Source: a virus
Strand: one strand, 5' to 3'
IMG/VR virus record: IMGVR_UViG_3300049830_000086
Location: 1-54,237 of that record
Length of the DNA: 54,237 bases
This document shows, piece by piece, positions 517 through 25,600 of this stretch. The notes under the pieces are model-generated. The model was not told where the DNA came from, ran no database searches, and worked only from the letters and a program-made list of their open reading frames with translations. Position numbers and translations under genes: made by a program. Each line of letters starts with the position of its first letter. Position 1 is the first letter of the stretch.

Positions 517-1350
517 TTACATCTCAATACCGTGAGTCGAGTACCACCATTCTTTAGTTTGATTAGGATGCTTAGGCAGTAAAGCCTCGTATCTCTCTTT
601 CATTCTAGACTGGCGATTGACTTCAGTTATAAACAATGGATGATCCCAAGTAAAGCCTTCTTTGACCATTTGTCTTAGAAGTCTCTTAAGAACGTAACCC
701 TGGTTTTTGTGACCTGGCTTGTATCCACTATCTACTATCTTCACGATTACATCTTTGAGGCACTCTTCCCTAGTCTTAGGTAAAGTACCGTTGATCAGCT
801 TATCCAGCCTTTCAAAACCAAAACCAACATCTATGCAAGTTCCTAAAGGGTTGACAATGTTACCAATCTCAATGCCTTGGGAATAGAACTCTGTGCAGTA
901 ACCTCCGATCTCACCATCCGTCCATTTGCATTCTGGATCTAGCCTTACTTCATGTTTGTGTAGGTCAGCCCAATTAGGACAGTCTGGATGGATTGTAACA
1001 TAGTCTACCTTCAATTGGCACAGGTCTAAAAAACCAGTCCAAAAGTCGATAGCTTGTTTAACAGTCCAGTCTCTGAATGAGAATAGGCCCATCATCTCGA
1101 AGTGTCCAAGATGTGTACCGTCTCCCATAAAGTCGAAGTCGTTTAGCCTAATACAAGATTGTACGTTAGCTAAGGTTATGCCTTTGTATGACTCGTCTTT
1201 GAACTGATTCTTGAACTGCTGCATTCCAGCTGGACAGAATAGTGTAGTCTCATCATACGGGTTTACTGTGTTTACCGGTTTATAAGGAATGCCGTGTTTC
1301 GTACAGTAATCGAAATACAGTTCCTTTACATTGCGTTTAGCGGTGTCATA
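517..1350 (-). CDS. Alanyl-tRNA synthetase catalytic-domain homologue, start frame unresolved
   Basis: The protein matches the class II catalytic domain of AlaRS along its length: N-terminal LFCPAGMQQFK (AlaRS ..TNAGM.QFK), motif-2-like HFEMMGLFSF, CTEFY, the motif-3 region CIDVGFGFERL, and GYVLKRLLRQM (AlaRS GYVLRRIIRRA). At about 275 residues it lacks the C-terminal tRNA-binding, editing and C-Ala domains of full AlaRS (about 870). The first ATG in frame is at 1224, but AlaRS similarity continues upstream to about 1345 in the same frame with no start codon. An AGGAGG followed by ATG-CTA-TGA-C lies at the 5' end, so a +1 shift or a mutation is needed to join start and body (see findings). 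It may charge tRNA-Ala, here encoded at 23842, or another substrate. Confidence 0.8.
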   Translation of the reverse strand, partial: YDTAKRNVKELYFDYCTKHGIPYKPVNTVNPYDETTLFCPAGMQQFKNQFKDESYKGITLANVQSCIRLNDFDFMGDGTHLGHFEMMGLFSFRDWTVKQAIDFWTGFLDLCQLKVDYVTIHPDCPNWADLHKHEVRLDPECKWTDGEIGGYCTEFYSQGIEIGNIVNPLGTCIDVGFGFERLDKLINGTLPKTREECLKDVIVKIVDSGYKPGHKNQGYVLKRLLRQMVKEGFTWDHPLFITEVNRQSRMKERYEALLPKHPNQTKEWWYSTHGIEM

Positions 1351-3794: not shown

Positions 3795-4145
3795 TTATAA
3801 TTCGGTGTCTAGTCTACGCTCTCCTCCAGAGGGAACGTTGAAGTTCTCTACTACGAAACCACAGTGAATGCAAATGTCCCGGCAATAAGTGCCTGGGATA
3901 ACTTTCTTATGCATTTCTCTGAGATTAGCAATGGCTGTAGTGATAGCCCTAAGCTTGAATTCTTTGTCATCAACACTATCATTGCTTCCAGGTTTGAAGT
4001 TATTGACTAGCTCGGCAATCTTGCTAGCAACAAATTCTTCAGAAGTAGTCTCTTTAGTAGGTTGAAGTTTGGAGTAACGAGGCTCAAACCGGTGGCCAAA
4101 GACGAAGCCTAGAAAACCTTTACAGGTAGGTAATGTAGATTTCAT
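3795..4145 (-). CDS. Cys-containing small protein with the RRLDTEL C-terminal tag
   Basis: A 116-residue paralogue of the next gene upstream (4142-4477). Both share an N-terminal GFxFGHxFxPRYS segment, a helical middle, and RDICIxCG near the C-terminus. The two Cys plus His residues could bind zinc. It ends GGERRLDTEL, a member of the recurrent C-terminal peptide discussed in findings. Its start overlaps the paralogue's stop by 4 bases, indicating tandem duplication and coupled expression. Function unknown. Confidence 0.75.
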   Translation of the reverse strand: MKSTLPTCKGFLGFVFGHRFEPRYSKLQPTKETTSEEFVASKIAELVNNFKPGSNDSVDDKEFKLRAITTAIANLREMHKKVIPGTYCRDICIHCGFVVENFNVPSGGERRLDTEL

Positions 4146-4477
4146 ATATCGGTGTCTAGCCTACGAGTGGGAGTAGGAGTCAAAGGTAGGTTAAGCATCA
4201 CTTCAGTGCCACATCTAATACAGATGTCCCGGTGATAATGCTTTTCAATCGGTACTTTAACTTTAGTAACTTCGACAATTTGCTGCTGACCTTCTTTTCG
4301 TAGTTCTTGGTCAGTACTGATAGCTTTTACTTGACCACACAGCTTTTCGTAAGATTCCCGGATATTTTTGATAGCCTCCAGAGTAACTTCATTACTGGCT
4401 AAACTAAGCTTTTCGGAATACCTTGGTTTGAACTTGTGGCCAAAGATAAAGCCGAGGATACCACAACATTTTGACAT
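4142..4477 (-). CDS. Paralogue of 3795-4145, C-terminal tag RRLDTDI
   Basis: A 111-residue protein with the same layout as its downstream neighbour: GFIFGHKFKPRYS near the N-terminus, a helical linker, RDICIRCG, then the terminal RRLDTDI. Cys residues at the N-terminus (SKCCG) and in ICIRCG may form a metal site. It is the first gene after the hairpin and tRNA-Leu at 4.5-4.6 kb. Unknown function. Confidence 0.75.
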   Translation of the reverse strand: MSKCCGILGFIFGHKFKPRYSEKLSLASNEVTLEAIKNIRESYEKLCGQVKAISTDQELRKEGQQQIVEVTKVKVPIEKHYHRDICIRCGTEVMLNLPLTPTPTRRLDTDI

Positions 4478-8481: not shown

Positions 8482-8590
8482 TTGCCAGGGAAATCTTGTG
8501 AGACGGTGGCATCCAATTGCCAATCCCCGCATCAAGAGCGGGGACTTTGATTCGAACAAAGAAGAACGTCTTACGATGCACCACTGACAA
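8482..8590 (-). other. Structured element enclosing a circularly permuted tRNA (copy 1)
   Basis: In transcription order: P1 strand TTGTCAG, TGGTG, P2 strand AGACG, TTCTT, T-arm CTTTG-TTCGAAT-CAAAG (8545-8561), acceptor 3' strand TCCCCGC (8538-8544), a 7-nt linker, acceptor 5' strand GCGGGGA (8524-8530), TT, D-arm GGCAATTGGATGCC, P2' CGTCT, ATTTCC, and P1' CTGGCAA. The acceptor strands match 7/7 and P1 pairs 7/7. The tRNA halves are therefore in reverse order. P2 occupies the place of the anticodon stem, and the anticodon cannot be read. Confidence 0.7.
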
Positions 8591-8593
8591 AAG

Positions 8594-8669
8594 TGGAGCC
8601 AGAGGACGGGGTTGAACCGACGACCTTCGCTTTACAAAAGCGTTGCTCTACCAACTGAGCTACTCTGGC
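8594..8669 (-). tRNA. tRNA-Thr(TGT)
   Basis: Acceptor GCCAGAG/CTCTGGC, D-arm GCTCAGTTGGTAGAGC, anticodon loop TTTGTAA (TGT) with a mismatch at the base of the stem, T-loop TTCAACC, discriminator T, CCA encoded. It is directly upstream of the permuted tRNA element. Confidence 0.9.
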
Positions 8670-10246: not shown

Positions 10247-10248
10247 AA

Positions 10249-10601
10249 AGTCTGTCTCATAGCCGCGCTTCTGTTTCTAATCCATCATTTGTCTAAGCCC
10301 TCTAAAAAACCATGTACTATTGGCAGCACTACCGTACATATTCGAGGTTGCATCTACTTTGTGGTGTTAGCGGATTTCTCCTCCCAAACAGCTGCTGTGA
10401 TGGCGCGAACTTCCTCTATCCTCAGGGTGATTCCCGATTCTCCACACCCACAGCCTCCATTGCCCTGCCCACTATATCAAGGCGGTTAAGGGTTAGCTAG
10501 CCGAAGAGGCATACTGATTTATGGATCGTGTCTAGCATCCGGTGAAATTGTAATTTTCCGGACTCGTTATATTATGAGGACAGCGATGGATCGGACAGAC
10601 T
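10249..10601 (-). ncRNA. rnpB: RNase P RNA (phage-encoded, diverged)
   Basis: The 353-nt region between a gene stop and tRNA-Thr has the hallmark elements of bacterial RNase P RNA. P1 is AGTCTGTC/GACAGACT at the two ends. P2 is GATCCATC (10585-10592) with GATGGATT (10279-10286). CR-I is GAGGAAGTTCGCGC near 10411 and CR-V is ACAGAAGCGCGGCTAT near 10265. These two form P4, AG-U-UCGCGC with GCGCGGCU, with the conserved bulged U. Relative to E. coli, the P4 pairs differ by compensatory changes. The segment between the P4 strands is only about 130 nt, so the specificity domain seems reduced, while the 5' (P3) side is expanded. It would trim 5' leaders of the many phage tRNAs. Confidence 0.72.
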
Positions 10602-12195: not shown

Positions 12196-12504
12196 TTAAA
12201 GTTCTGTGTCTAAATTACGTTCCGGCACAACAATCAATTCACCCGATACTTGCGTACCATATGCGTTTGGAACATTGAAACCGGCTAAATGGATTAACTT
12301 ACATTGCGGACAGGCTAATAGAAAACCACCTTTAACCATGTTTTTGCTTATGTTAGTTCTGACTACGAAATCATTGTCAACAAAGACAATTTGACCCAAA
12401 TCGATATCACTACTGTTGAATGGTACGAGGAGAGCTTCATTAGTCTTGAAGATATGATCTCTATCACAACATACCTGATCTTCGATGTTTTGGATTTTTG
12501 TCAT
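12196..12504 (-). CDS. Cys-containing unknown protein with NLDTEL tag
   Basis: A 102-residue protein with paired cysteines (VCCDRDH near residue 12; ACPQCKLIH near residue 65) that could bind one zinc ion. It ends PERNLDTEL, a member of the recurrent C-terminal peptide. The stop immediately follows tRNA-Thr(CGT). No family assignment. Confidence 0.7.
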   Translation of the reverse strand: MTKIQNIEDQVCCDRDHIFKTNEALLVPFNSSDIDLGQIVFVDNDFVVRTNISKNMVKGGFLLACPQCKLIHLAGFNVPNAYGTQVSGELIVVPERNLDTEL

Positions 12505-13016: not shown

Positions 13017-13049
13017 ACTAAATCAGCTCTACCACTGAGCTATGCGCGC
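13002..13049 (-). pseudogene. 5' fragment of a tRNA (Ala-like) truncated at the HNH gene
   Basis: GCGCGCA-TA-GCTCAGTGGTAGAGC is a perfect tRNA 5' acceptor and D-arm, followed by a TTTGCAA loop (TGC-like). The variable region, T-arm and 3' acceptor strand are missing, and the HNH promoter and gene take their place. No matching 3' half is visible after the HNH gene. Confidence 0.65.
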
Positions 13050-13055
13050 GTTAAA

Positions 13056-13367
13056 TTATTGTACTCCTGCTGCTCTTTTTAACATCTGTAAATCAGGATG
13101 TGAGAGCCTAATGTTGTGCTTTGGAAGCTTGATATAAACAGCGTGTGTAGCACCTGTATCAATCAGCTTTACACCATTTTCACGCATGTATTCCAAGTCC
13201 TGTTTCACTACATCATAATGAGCTTGACCCATTAGAGAGTTGTCTTTCAAGAAATCAGCAATGGCCATGATTTGTATAAAGTGTAACTCTGTCGGACGAT
13301 AAATGTATAATGGGTAATGCCATTTCGTCAATGATTTGAAATATGTGTTAGCTTTCATCTTTGACAC
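13056..13367 (-). CDS. Unknown 103-residue protein
   Basis: It contains YPLYIYRPTELHFIQIMAIADF and an alpha/beta C-terminus ending LSHPDLQMLKRAAGVQ. No motif is diagnostic. It overlaps the upstream gene by 20 bases. The unit is bounded by the tRNA-Ala remnant on one side and a permuted tRNA on the other. Confidence 0.68.
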   Translation of the reverse strand: MSKMKANTYFKSLTKWHYPLYIYRPTELHFIQIMAIADFLKDNSLMGQAHYDVVKQDLEYMRENGVKLIDTGATHAVYIKLPKHNIRLSHPDLQMLKRAAGVQ

Positions 13368-13713: not shown

Positions 13714-13725
13714 AATTTTGTAATC

Positions 13726-22235: not shown

Positions 22236-22487
22236 TTATTCTGGATCTAATCTACGTTCCTGGTGCTCAGATAATTTGGCAACAGGTTTGTCGTTGTGTA
22301 TGTCAGGGTAGATCTCGTATTCCACTGACAAAGGACCATAAAGCTGGTAGTCCGGCTTATCTTTAGGAGTAGTTATCAAAGCACCTTCGCCAACGACTTG
22401 TACATTAAGCCGCTGCATAACGTGTTCTTTTACTATCCTATCGATCTCTTCTGAGCTAACCCTGATTTTGCTTGATAAAGGGTTCAT
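22236..22487 (-). CDS. Small tagged protein, paralogue 1 of a tandem trio
   Basis: An 83-residue protein with an IRVSSEEIDRIVKEHVMQRLNV helix, then strands (YGPLSVEYEIYP), ending HQERRLDPE. The same start pattern ([IF]-x-[LVT]-[ST]-x-x-E-[IV] followed by a helix ending K/R-x-N/G-V/L) and the terminal tag occur in the next two genes. The trio appears to be a diverged tandem duplication. Function unknown. Confidence 0.72.
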   Translation of the reverse strand: MNPLSSKIRVSSEEIDRIVKEHVMQRLNVQVVGEGALITTPKDKPDYQLYGPLSVEYEIYPDIHNDKPVAKLSEHQERRLDPE

Positions 22488-22717
22488 AGTGATGGATCCA
22501 TTCTTCTTGTCGATTCGTCTGGATGTGTTGATGGAGAAGCATTGCCTCCCTTAGGTTTAACTGAGAATACAAGGCTTATGGCCCCATAATTGTTATACTC
22601 AGTCTCTCCAAAACGATGCTTAGTAACAGTTATGTCAGTAACATCAACATTAAACTTAGTTTGTACAATCGATTTGAGAGTCTCAGTTATTTCTTTTTCG
22701 CTTAGTCGTATCTCCAT
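22484..22717 (-). CDS. Small tagged protein, paralogue 2
   Basis: The start is at ATG 22717 (MEIRLSEKEITETLKSIVQT), chosen because it directly follows the stop of the upstream gene and matches the paralogues; a longer in-frame extension would overlap that gene throughout. The 77 residues have the helix-strand layout with YNNYGAISLVFSV, ending STRRMDPSL. Unknown function. Confidence 0.72.
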   Translation of the reverse strand: MEIRLSEKEITETLKSIVQTKFNVDVTDITVTKHRFGETEYNNYGAISLVFSVKPKGGNASPSTHPDESTRRMDPSL

Positions 22718-22718
22718 A

Positions 22719-22976
22719 TTAGAGGGTTGGGTCGATTCTACGATCCTGGTTGACGGCGTTACTGACAGCGTTGGTCTCCACAACACTCGTCGGTTCAGTG
22801 TTAGGGGGAATAACAGCTTCCTGTATATCCACTCTGGTAGAACTGGTCTGAGAGTCTTTATCATTGTAGTCTTGAAAACTGATAGACATCTTTCCAGCTT
22901 GCTGTAACCCATATCGTTCTTTGATATATCGACCGAGAATGCTAAGGACTTCATTGTTCGTAAATATGATTTTCAT
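22719..22976 (-). CDS. Small tagged protein, paralogue 3
   Basis: An 85-residue protein: MKIIFTNNEVLSILGRYIKERYGL, strand KMSISFQDYN, then a Thr/Ser/Val-rich linker and terminal DRRIDPTL. Homologous in layout to the two following genes. Its start overlaps the end of the CxCC gene. Function unknown. Confidence 0.7.
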   Translation of the reverse strand: MKIIFTNNEVLSILGRYIKERYGLQQAGKMSISFQDYNDKDSQTSSTRVDIQEAVIPPNTEPTSVVETNAVSNAVNQDRRIDPTL

Positions 22977-23918: not shown

Positions 23919-24377
23919 TTATAAATCTGGATCGAGCCGTCTAGGCTCTTCTTCTTTTTTACCGAACTTACCAACCCCAGATAGGTTAGCCAAGAACTCT
24001 AAGATAGCCTGTGCCATCTCAGACTCACTAGGACAATGCATATAGCCTTTGTCTTTGAAAGGATGCGGGTTCTTCTTAGCATACTCCTGCTTAAACTTAA
24101 CCATGAAGTCTGCCAATTCATCCCGCTTAGATACTATAGCTGTAAAGTCATATGGATGCTCAGGTATATCTGCTACCTTCGTCACTAAACCCAAAGACTT
24201 ACAACCAGGTGCGATCTTCATCAACCATAGACCCTCGCTTAGTTTCATTCTATCTGCGAGGAACTGACCTTCTAGCTCTTGTGCGATACCATTACCACCC
24301 CTTACACGCACACCACTAGCCTTGTCAGTTACAGCTATGTGATACTCGCCACCTTTTCTGTAATAGAGGGTAGGCAT
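23919..24377 (-). CDS. Unknown protein with RRLDPDL tag
   Basis: A 152-residue protein starting MPTLYYRKGGEYHIAVTDKASGVRVRGG, with several strands and a helical C-terminal half (ELADFMVKFKQEYAKKN). It ends EEEPRRLDPDL, a full match to the recurrent C-terminal peptide. It overlaps the start of the upstream gene's stop region by one base. Function unknown. Confidence 0.73.
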   Translation of the reverse strand: MPTLYYRKGGEYHIAVTDKASGVRVRGGNGIAQELEGQFLADRMKLSEGLWLMKIAPGCKSLGLVTKVADIPEHPYDFTAIVSKRDELADFMVKFKQEYAKKNPHPFKDKGYMHCPSESEMAQAILEFLANLSGVGKFGKKEEEPRRLDPDL

Positions 24378-24702: not shown

Positions 24703-24834
24703 TTGTGGGGAAAAACGTCACAAAGGTTTACGCGCTCTAGCCAATTGAGCTACCTGCCGATAGTCGGCAGGGAAGGGCTCGAACCTCCAACCTCGATCTC
24801 CATAAGATGAACTTTGTAACTTACACCACCACAA
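24703..24834 (-). other. Structured element enclosing a permuted tRNA (copy 3, cluster A)
   Basis: P1 TTGTGG/CCACAA, TGGTG, P2 GTTACAAAG/CTTTGTGAC, TTCATCTT, T-arm GGAGG-TTCGAGC-CCTTC (24772-24788), acceptor 3' CCTGCCG (24765-24771), 5-nt linker, acceptor 5' CGGCAGG (24753-24759), TA, D-arm GCTCAATTGGCTAGAGC (24734-24750), then P2', TTTTTCC and P1'. The acceptor matches 7/7, and the D- and T-arms are canonical. The anticodon stem is not evident. Confidence 0.7.
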
Positions 24835-24841
24835 AGTGAGC

Positions 24842-24930
24842 AGATAGGGAAAAGCGGACCAACGTTTGCCCCTTTCGGAGCTGGTTTCATTTGCAGTGAA
24901 GATGAACGTCGGGATCCTACACCACTATCT
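24842..24930 (-). other. Structured element, copy 4 (cluster B), tRNA part unclear
   Basis: P1 AGATAG/CTATCT, TGGTG, P2 CCGACG/CGTTGG, GTTCATCTT and CTTTTCC are all present. The interior has a GCTCC-GAAA-GGGGC hairpin where the permuted acceptor should be, and no TTCRA T-loop, so the tRNA portion is either heavily reduced or something else. Confidence 0.5.
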
Positions 24931-24939
24931 AAATTGAAC

Positions 24940-25042
24940 TGCAGGGAAAGTCGAAACAAGAATTGCGGATTTGAACCGCTAAGCCCGGGTTTTACGCCAG
25001 GTTCTTAACCAATAAGATGTATCTCATTTCTACGCCACTGCA
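24940..25042 (-). other. Structured element, copy 5 (cluster C), tRNA arms in normal order
   Basis: P1 TGCAG/CTGCA, TGGCG, a 9-bp P2 GAAATGAGA/TCTTGTTTC, ATACATCTT and ACTTTCC. The interior reads D-loop-like ATTGGTTAAGAACC, an 8-nt-loop stem CCTGG/CCGGG, then T-arm GCGG-TTCAAAT-CCGC, that is, normal order without an acceptor stem of its own; P2 may serve as the acceptor. Confidence 0.5.
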
Positions 25043-25056
25043 AAAGTGTTTGACGG

Positions 25057-25187
25057 GAAGAGGGGAAATCAGCAACGAAAAGTTTGTCACACGTCCTACC
25101 AACTATGTGACGAGGTTTTAACTATATCCTCTCGACTTACGCCGTTTAGCTTTCGCCAAAGATGAACTTCGTTTGCTTCGCCACTCA
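25057..25187 (-). other. Structured element, copy 6 (cluster D)
   Basis: TGGCG, P2 AACGAAG with CTTTTCGTT, GTTCATCTT and GATTTCC are present; P1 is weak (GAG/CTC). The interior has a D-arm-like GTCACATAGTTGGTAGGAC and a GAGG/CCTC pairing over an A/T loop, suggestive of permuted order, but no canonical T-loop. Confidence 0.45.
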
Positions 25188-25196
25188 AAATTGAAA

Positions 25197-25324
25197 GACA
25201 GGGAAAATTGAACTAACATTGTTTCTGTGCTACCATTACACTACCCCGGCATAAAGCCAGGGCTAGGATTCGAACCTAGACTAGTCTTTTGAACGAAGAT
25301 GAACGTCAATTCTACACCACTGTC
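25197..25324 (-). other. Structured element enclosing a permuted tRNA (copy 7, cluster E)
   Basis: P1 GACAG/CTGTC, TGGTG, P2 AATTGA/TCAATT, GTTCATCTT, T-arm CTAGG-TTCGAAT-CCTAG (25263-25279), acceptor 3' CCCTGGC (25256-25262), 5-nt linker, acceptor 5' GCCGGGG (25244-25250), TA, D-arm GTGTAATGGTAGCAC (25227-25241), P2', ATTTTCC, P1'. The acceptor is 7/7 including one G-U. Anticodon not readable. Confidence 0.7.
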
Positions 25325-25344
25325 AAAAATTCTAGTTCGTGTGG

Positions 25345-25600
25345 TACCGGATAATCGAACAATCCCCGGCTGTTTTAAGTACAGTAACTTGCTAGGTAAC
25401 CCTAGCGTGCTTTCGCACTCCAGTTATATTAGCTCAAAACCAAAACTACTGTGGACTGTACTGGCTGATTGCTCTTTAGTGCATATAGCCTAGCTCTGAG
25501 AGAACACTGGGACTCAGTTGATTAGCGACTGACCGGACCTAGGACCGGTGCTGCTACCTTAAGGTAGCTACCCTGTTTAACAGCTGTCTAACCTCCCTAA
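25345..25600 (-). other. Large structured non-coding RNA candidate upstream of the element cluster
   Basis: About 250 nt without ORF between the lipoprotein gene and the permuted tRNA cluster. It contains many short hairpins: GCTACC/GGTAGC (25553-25568), ACCGG/CCGGT (25532-25549), GCTAGG/CCTAGC (25391-25406), GTGC-GAAA-GCAC (25407-25418) and the long-range pair GTACAG/CTGTAC (25379-25384 with 25456-25461). Near its 3' end is a T-loop-like GTTCGATT and a CCGG/CCGG closure. It is not recognised as tmRNA, RNase P or group I intron. Confidence 0.45.

Follow-up and report, generated by a model that had tools for sequence, protein, structure and literature searches.

The element analysed here, which we call Y1, covers 109 nt (8482..8590) on the minus strand of a viral record, and the whole stretch of DNA under analysis, 54,237 nucleotides (54 kb), is referred to as the window. 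Y1 follows tRNA-Thr(tgt) (8594..8669, minus strand), whose CCA ends 3 nt upstream of it, and its own end lies about 10 nt ahead of an ATG. Read along the minus strand from 8590 to 8482, it starts with TTGTCAG (8584..8590), the 5′ strand of an outer stem, P1, which pairs with CTGGCAA (P1′, 8482-8488) at 7/7 positions, one of them a G-U. Then come TGGTG (8579..8583), CATC and the 5′ strand of a second stem, P2, GTAAGACG (8567..8574), which pairs with CGTCTCAC (P2′, 8498-8505) at 7/8 positions, with one A.C mismatch. TTCTT leads into a T-arm, CTTTG-TTCGAAT-CAAAG (8545..8561), followed by the 3′ strand of an acceptor stem, a 7-nt loop and the acceptor 5′ strand, TCCCCGC (TCTTGAT) GCGGGGA (8524..8544), paired at 7/7 and with no CCA. 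After TT there is a D-arm, GGCA-ATTGGA-TGCC (8508..8521), whose loop shows the GG typical of tRNA D-loops, and after AC the RNA returns through P2′, AAGA, TTTCC (8489..8493) and P1′. TGGTG and TTTCC face each other as an internal loop in which GG can pair with the CC of TTTCC, and the T-loop TTCGAAT together with the GG of the D-loop would make the usual tRNA elbow contact possible.

The minus-strand RNA of Y1 folds with z = -3.5; the plus strand also folds (z = -5.0), so that the fold does not set the direction, and we placed Y1 on the minus strand because of its tRNA motifs and of the co-directional sister copies and tRNAs. The initial annotation, a model's reading of the sequence, had described a 109-nt element adjoining tRNA-Thr with a complete outer P1, a perfect acceptor, TGGTG and TTCC in set positions and P2 in place of the anticodon stem. 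The element is real and these features were borne out by the sequence, the D-arm of Y1 running into P2′.

The surroundings are rich in tRNA genes, 31 of which lie in the window among many HNH-like and small ORFs. Searches with the DNA polymerase, a 671-aa protein, an SMC-like protein and RecA revealed no close relatives of the phage in the collections searched. Directly upstream of tRNA-Thr(ggt) there is an RNase-P-RNA-like stretch (10248-10442, minus strand, possibly to ~10600) with the motifs GAGGAA and ACAGAAG...GCGGCUA, matched by the archaeal RNase P model at 25.0 bits (E 2.4e-5), below the cut-off. A lone tRNA 5′ half (GCGCGCATAGCTCAGTGGTAGAGC...) with no recognised 3′ half is found at 13026-13058 (minus strand), and a short ORF at 517-1224 (minus strand) matches part of class II alanyl-tRNA synthetase (PF01411, E 1.8e-12). 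Small proteins encoded on the minus strand at 4142-4477, 3795-4145, 12196-12504, 22236-22954 and 23919-24377 have a similar C-terminal tail (RRLDTEL, RRLDTDI, RRLDPDL, RRMDPSL and alike).

Y1 is one of seven relatives of the same scaffold in the window, all on the minus strand. The next copy, Y2 (13724..13883), carries a Leu-like permuted head and an extra stem. Five more are clustered at 24703-25324: Y3 (24703..24834); Y4 (24841..24931, 91 nt), a scaffold with two small hairpins in place of the tRNA head; Y5 (24939..25043), with TGGCG and a T-arm-like hairpin in which no closed acceptor was found; Y6 (about 25045..25185, ends approximate), with TGGCG, a weak P1 and a head that is not tRNA-like by scan; and Y7 (25197..25324), again with a permuted head. 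T-arm, closed acceptor and D-arm follow each other in permuted order in Y1, Y2, Y3 and Y7. The motif after P2 is UUCAUC in most copies, UUCUUC in Y1 or UACAUC, compared with UUAUC/UUACC in Y RNAs. Just upstream of the array lies a structured-looking intergenic stretch (25340-25600, minus strand) with no Rfam match. The description of Y1 as far from the cluster is correct only in part, since Y2 lies between them, and its description as a minimal version holds among the tRNA-headed copies, of which it is the smallest, although the headless Y4 is shorter.

A descriptor scan of the window, combining TGGYG, TTCC, a complementary outer stem and a TTCATC-like motif, returned five true elements, one of which was matched again in a second register; all of these matches are on the minus strand. 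By comparison, dinucleotide shuffles gave 0.195 matches each, with a maximum of 2 (200 shuffles). A loop-agnostic descriptor found Y2 and Y3 in the window, but in unrelated loci it also matched about 8 times per Mb, and we did not rely on it. In viral contigs, scaffold patterns produced at least 120 and 115 chance matches, none of those listed having both stems, and a stricter scaffold pattern produced zero matches.

At the gathering threshold, Rfam recognised only tRNAs in the window. The best Rfam match inside the cluster was that of YrlA (RF02553, gathering score 69) to Y3, at 35.9 bits (E 5e-6) and thus under the cut-off; the match to Y7 was weak and there was none to Y1. As the YrlA model responds to tail-to-head tRNA pairs too (25.8 bits at 14221-14334) and, weakly, to control genomes, sub-cut-off scores from it prove little by themselves, and an independent model was built. 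Starting from the Deinococcus Rsr sequence (2NVO), we gathered 343 phage records with Ro-like genes and 80 viral contig loci, plus bacterial loci. The Y RNAs adjoining Ro genes follow the plan P1 - CCGA - 9-bp P2 - UUAUC/UUACC - effector - P2′ - ACnnCUUG - P1′, and by scan a permuted, closed-acceptor tRNA head is present in 27 Ro-linked Y RNAs. The covariance model R1 was made from 17 of these tRNA-headed RNAs and contains no window sequence; its base pairs cover the head only, with P1 and P2 scored as sequence (for alignment A2, RNAalifold retained the head stems alone).

Y3 and Y7 are related to the Ro-linked Y RNAs. Applied to the 54-kb window, R1 ranked Y3 first (56.5 bits, E 7e-11) and Y7 second (49.1 bits, E 3e-9), both matched end to end, with the best tail-to-head tRNA pair at 34.0 bits. 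Y2 scored 30.5 bits, which is within the range of tRNA pairs. Segment by segment, Y3 also agrees with Ro-linked Y RNAs of other viruses and of bacteria. In one of these (L333), P1 and a loop come before a 9-bp P2 and TTATC; next are linker, T-arm, closed acceptor and D-arm, and then GCTAAAACA, P2′, a second loop and P1′. Y3 keeps this order, with TTCATC and GCGTAAAC. Y1 was matched neither by the Rfam YrlA model nor by R1, so that its membership of the family rests on the scaffold that it shares with Y3 and Y7.

In four viral contigs (L284, L294, L323 and L327), three or four Y RNA scaffolds form an array a short way upstream of the Ro gene; such an array is therefore nothing unusual in a phage. 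Several Y RNA scaffolds also lie upstream of a Ro-like gene in an Armatimonadetes locus (L246); loop variants in these five arrays (TCGGA opposite a U-rich loop) are of a kind that Rfam may miss.

The permuted heads and their scaffold can be explained in other ways, and the pairing of the stems bears on several of them. The arms of P1 and P2 differ in every copy from Y1 to Y7, and they co-vary: when the 3′ arms of the seven copies were re-dealt in all 5040 permutations, the true pairing ranked 1st for P2, with no other re-dealing as good, and within the top 2 for P1, where one other was equally good, even though P1 of Y3 and Y6 had been entered in poor register, which works against the result. 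The initial annotation had named halves of two unrelated tRNA relics as the finding that would tell against it, and the window is full of tRNAs, whose tail-to-head pairs do imitate the permuted order. The idea of two relics fails because the acceptor strands pair at 7/7 within each of the four copies and at 3-6 of 7 when swapped between copies; a conserved scaffold also surrounds the heads, and we regard two relics as practically ruled out for Y1. Mobility, which the same annotation had proposed, was not borne out: no repeat boundaries, near-identical copies or transposase were seen, there is no long stem identity between copies, and the main direct repeat families of the region are tRNA-like. 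A head order that exactly matches a permuted tRNA gene, a possible anticodon stem in Y2 (TTGGT/ACCGA, seen in the sequence) and the RNase-P-RNA-like stretch in the window would suit true permuted tRNA genes, in which cutting and sealing at the outer stem would circularise the RNA, and RNase P and tRNase Z would open the acceptor to yield a functional tRNA, as happens in red algae and in some archaea. We nevertheless consider this very unlikely. Y1 has no anticodon stem or loop, Y4 is the same scaffold without a tRNA head, the plan is common to Ro-linked Y RNAs, and CCA is found in 0/4 acceptor loops as against the 29/31 window tRNAs that encode it (in a few of the 29 the annotated end is shifted by about a base), enzymatic addition of CCA being conceivable. 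What was called a permuted tRNA element is then a permuted tRNA-like domain on a P1/P2 scaffold rather than a permuted tRNA gene. It also seems highly improbable that the RNAs are cis-acting, tRNA-like leaders of the next gene. Y1, Y2 and Y3 each stop about 10-13 nt short of an ATG (after 8482, 13724 and 24703), as leaders might; however, phages leave little space between their genes, Y4-Y7 follow one another with no genes between the copies, and scaffold and heads are like those of free Y RNAs.

The protein partner gives rise to a further alternative. The TGGTG/TTTCC loop was found in 0/131 Ro-linked loci, in which CCGA or TCGGA stands opposite ACnnCTTG or a U-rich loop, and no TROVE domain was detected in the 54-kb record, which is linear and may be a fragment. 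These two observations would fit a Y-RNA architecture bound by a non-Ro protein, the seven RNAs then forming an independent class of tRNA-mimic scaffold with its own partner protein; its copies would display different heads, which during infection might, for example, be a set of decoys for enzymes that target tRNA, or of adaptors for them. We hold both the non-Ro partner and such a separate class to be unlikely. The P2 of about 9 bp and the linkers match those of Ro-linked Y RNAs, the tail motif after P2 is close to theirs, and Ro loops vary too; in several viral arrays TCGGA is opposite ACTTTTTA or AATTTTA, closer to the U-rich loop of the window copies. The record is linear, and the proteins scanned in it have replication and repair functions, with no structural genes among them, so that it is probably a fragment.

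We therefore favour the reading in which Y1 is a small phage RNA that resembles Y RNAs and is built on the YrlA plan, a member of a set of seven paralogues, with a platform for a Ro/TROVE-type ring protein and a tRNA-mimic effector head, and we think it likely. Together, Y1-Y7 would make up a divergent array of tRNA mimics, Y-RNA-like and carried by a phage, which we also find probable, their protein partner and function being what we infer from the likeness. So far, Y RNAs have mainly been described in a few bacteria. In the proposed mechanism, Y1 would be transcribed and processed from the tRNA-Thr transcript. P1, the TGGTG/TTTCC loop and P2 would serve as the platform on which a ring-shaped protein binds the RNA. 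This protein would be Ro60/TROVE or a divergent counterpart, supplied by the host or encoded elsewhere in the phage. The permuted head would be the effector, incapable of charging or decoding, and could present a look-alike of the tRNA elbow and acceptor to tRNA-binding proteins or nucleases. In the course of infection the RNA may thereby act as a tether or a gate for a machine of RNA processing or decay, the region around it also carrying the many tRNA genes, and Y1-Y7 could combine one kind of protein platform with several kinds of effector head.

The analogy is with Y RNAs described in the literature. YrlA consists of a large stem made from the 5′ and 3′ ends, which holds Rsr, and a domain that resembles tRNA in its D, T and acceptor arms (PMC8394870). 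In Deinococcus, Rsr is linked to PNPase by the Y RNA, and the heads of YrlA RNAs are so similar to tRNA that tRNA enzymes modify them (PMC8394870; PMC8058203). For Salmonella, the suggestion has been made that the tRNA-like domain of YrlA might compete with an anticodon nuclease (PMC7790460). Some phages are known to have Ro-like proteins (PMC7824862), and another paper mentions phage YrlA (PMC7765460).

If the favoured reading holds, at least seven Y-like RNAs in one phage lineage, with and without a tRNA head and with an altered loop, would be a natural set of variants for separating the roles of head and loop, and 'permuted tRNAs' of phage tRNA arrays may be Y RNAs overlooked by Rfam. Permuted tRNA genes, as in Cyanidioschyzon and some archaea, have the 3′ half before the 5′ half and a leader and trailer that pair. 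The window elements resemble them in both respects, but they have no CCA and, in Y1, no anticodon arm, they carry a conserved protein-type loop, and they belong to a bacterial virus. With YrlA (RF02553; Salmonella YrlA and the Y RNAs beside Rsr/Ro) they share a stem that the 5′ and 3′ ends form in two steps, with a P2 of about 9 bp, and the permuted T-arm, closed acceptor and D-arm head without anticodon, and the UUAUC-like tail there is close to the UUCAUC of most window copies. They differ from it in the TGGTG/TTTCC loop in place of CCGA/ACnnCUUG, in a score below the Rfam cut-off and in the lack of a Ro gene in the record; in Y1, moreover, P2 has 8 positions with one mismatch, compared with about 9 bp, and the longer linkers that usually lead from it to the head are missing. 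The phage Y RNA arrays, those of the four viral contigs and of Gordonia phage Cashline (L248), adjoin a TROVE gene, whereas Y1-Y7 lie among tRNA genes and are partly dispersed, but in both cases several different Y or Y-like RNAs stand in tandem and some of them have U-rich 3′ loops.
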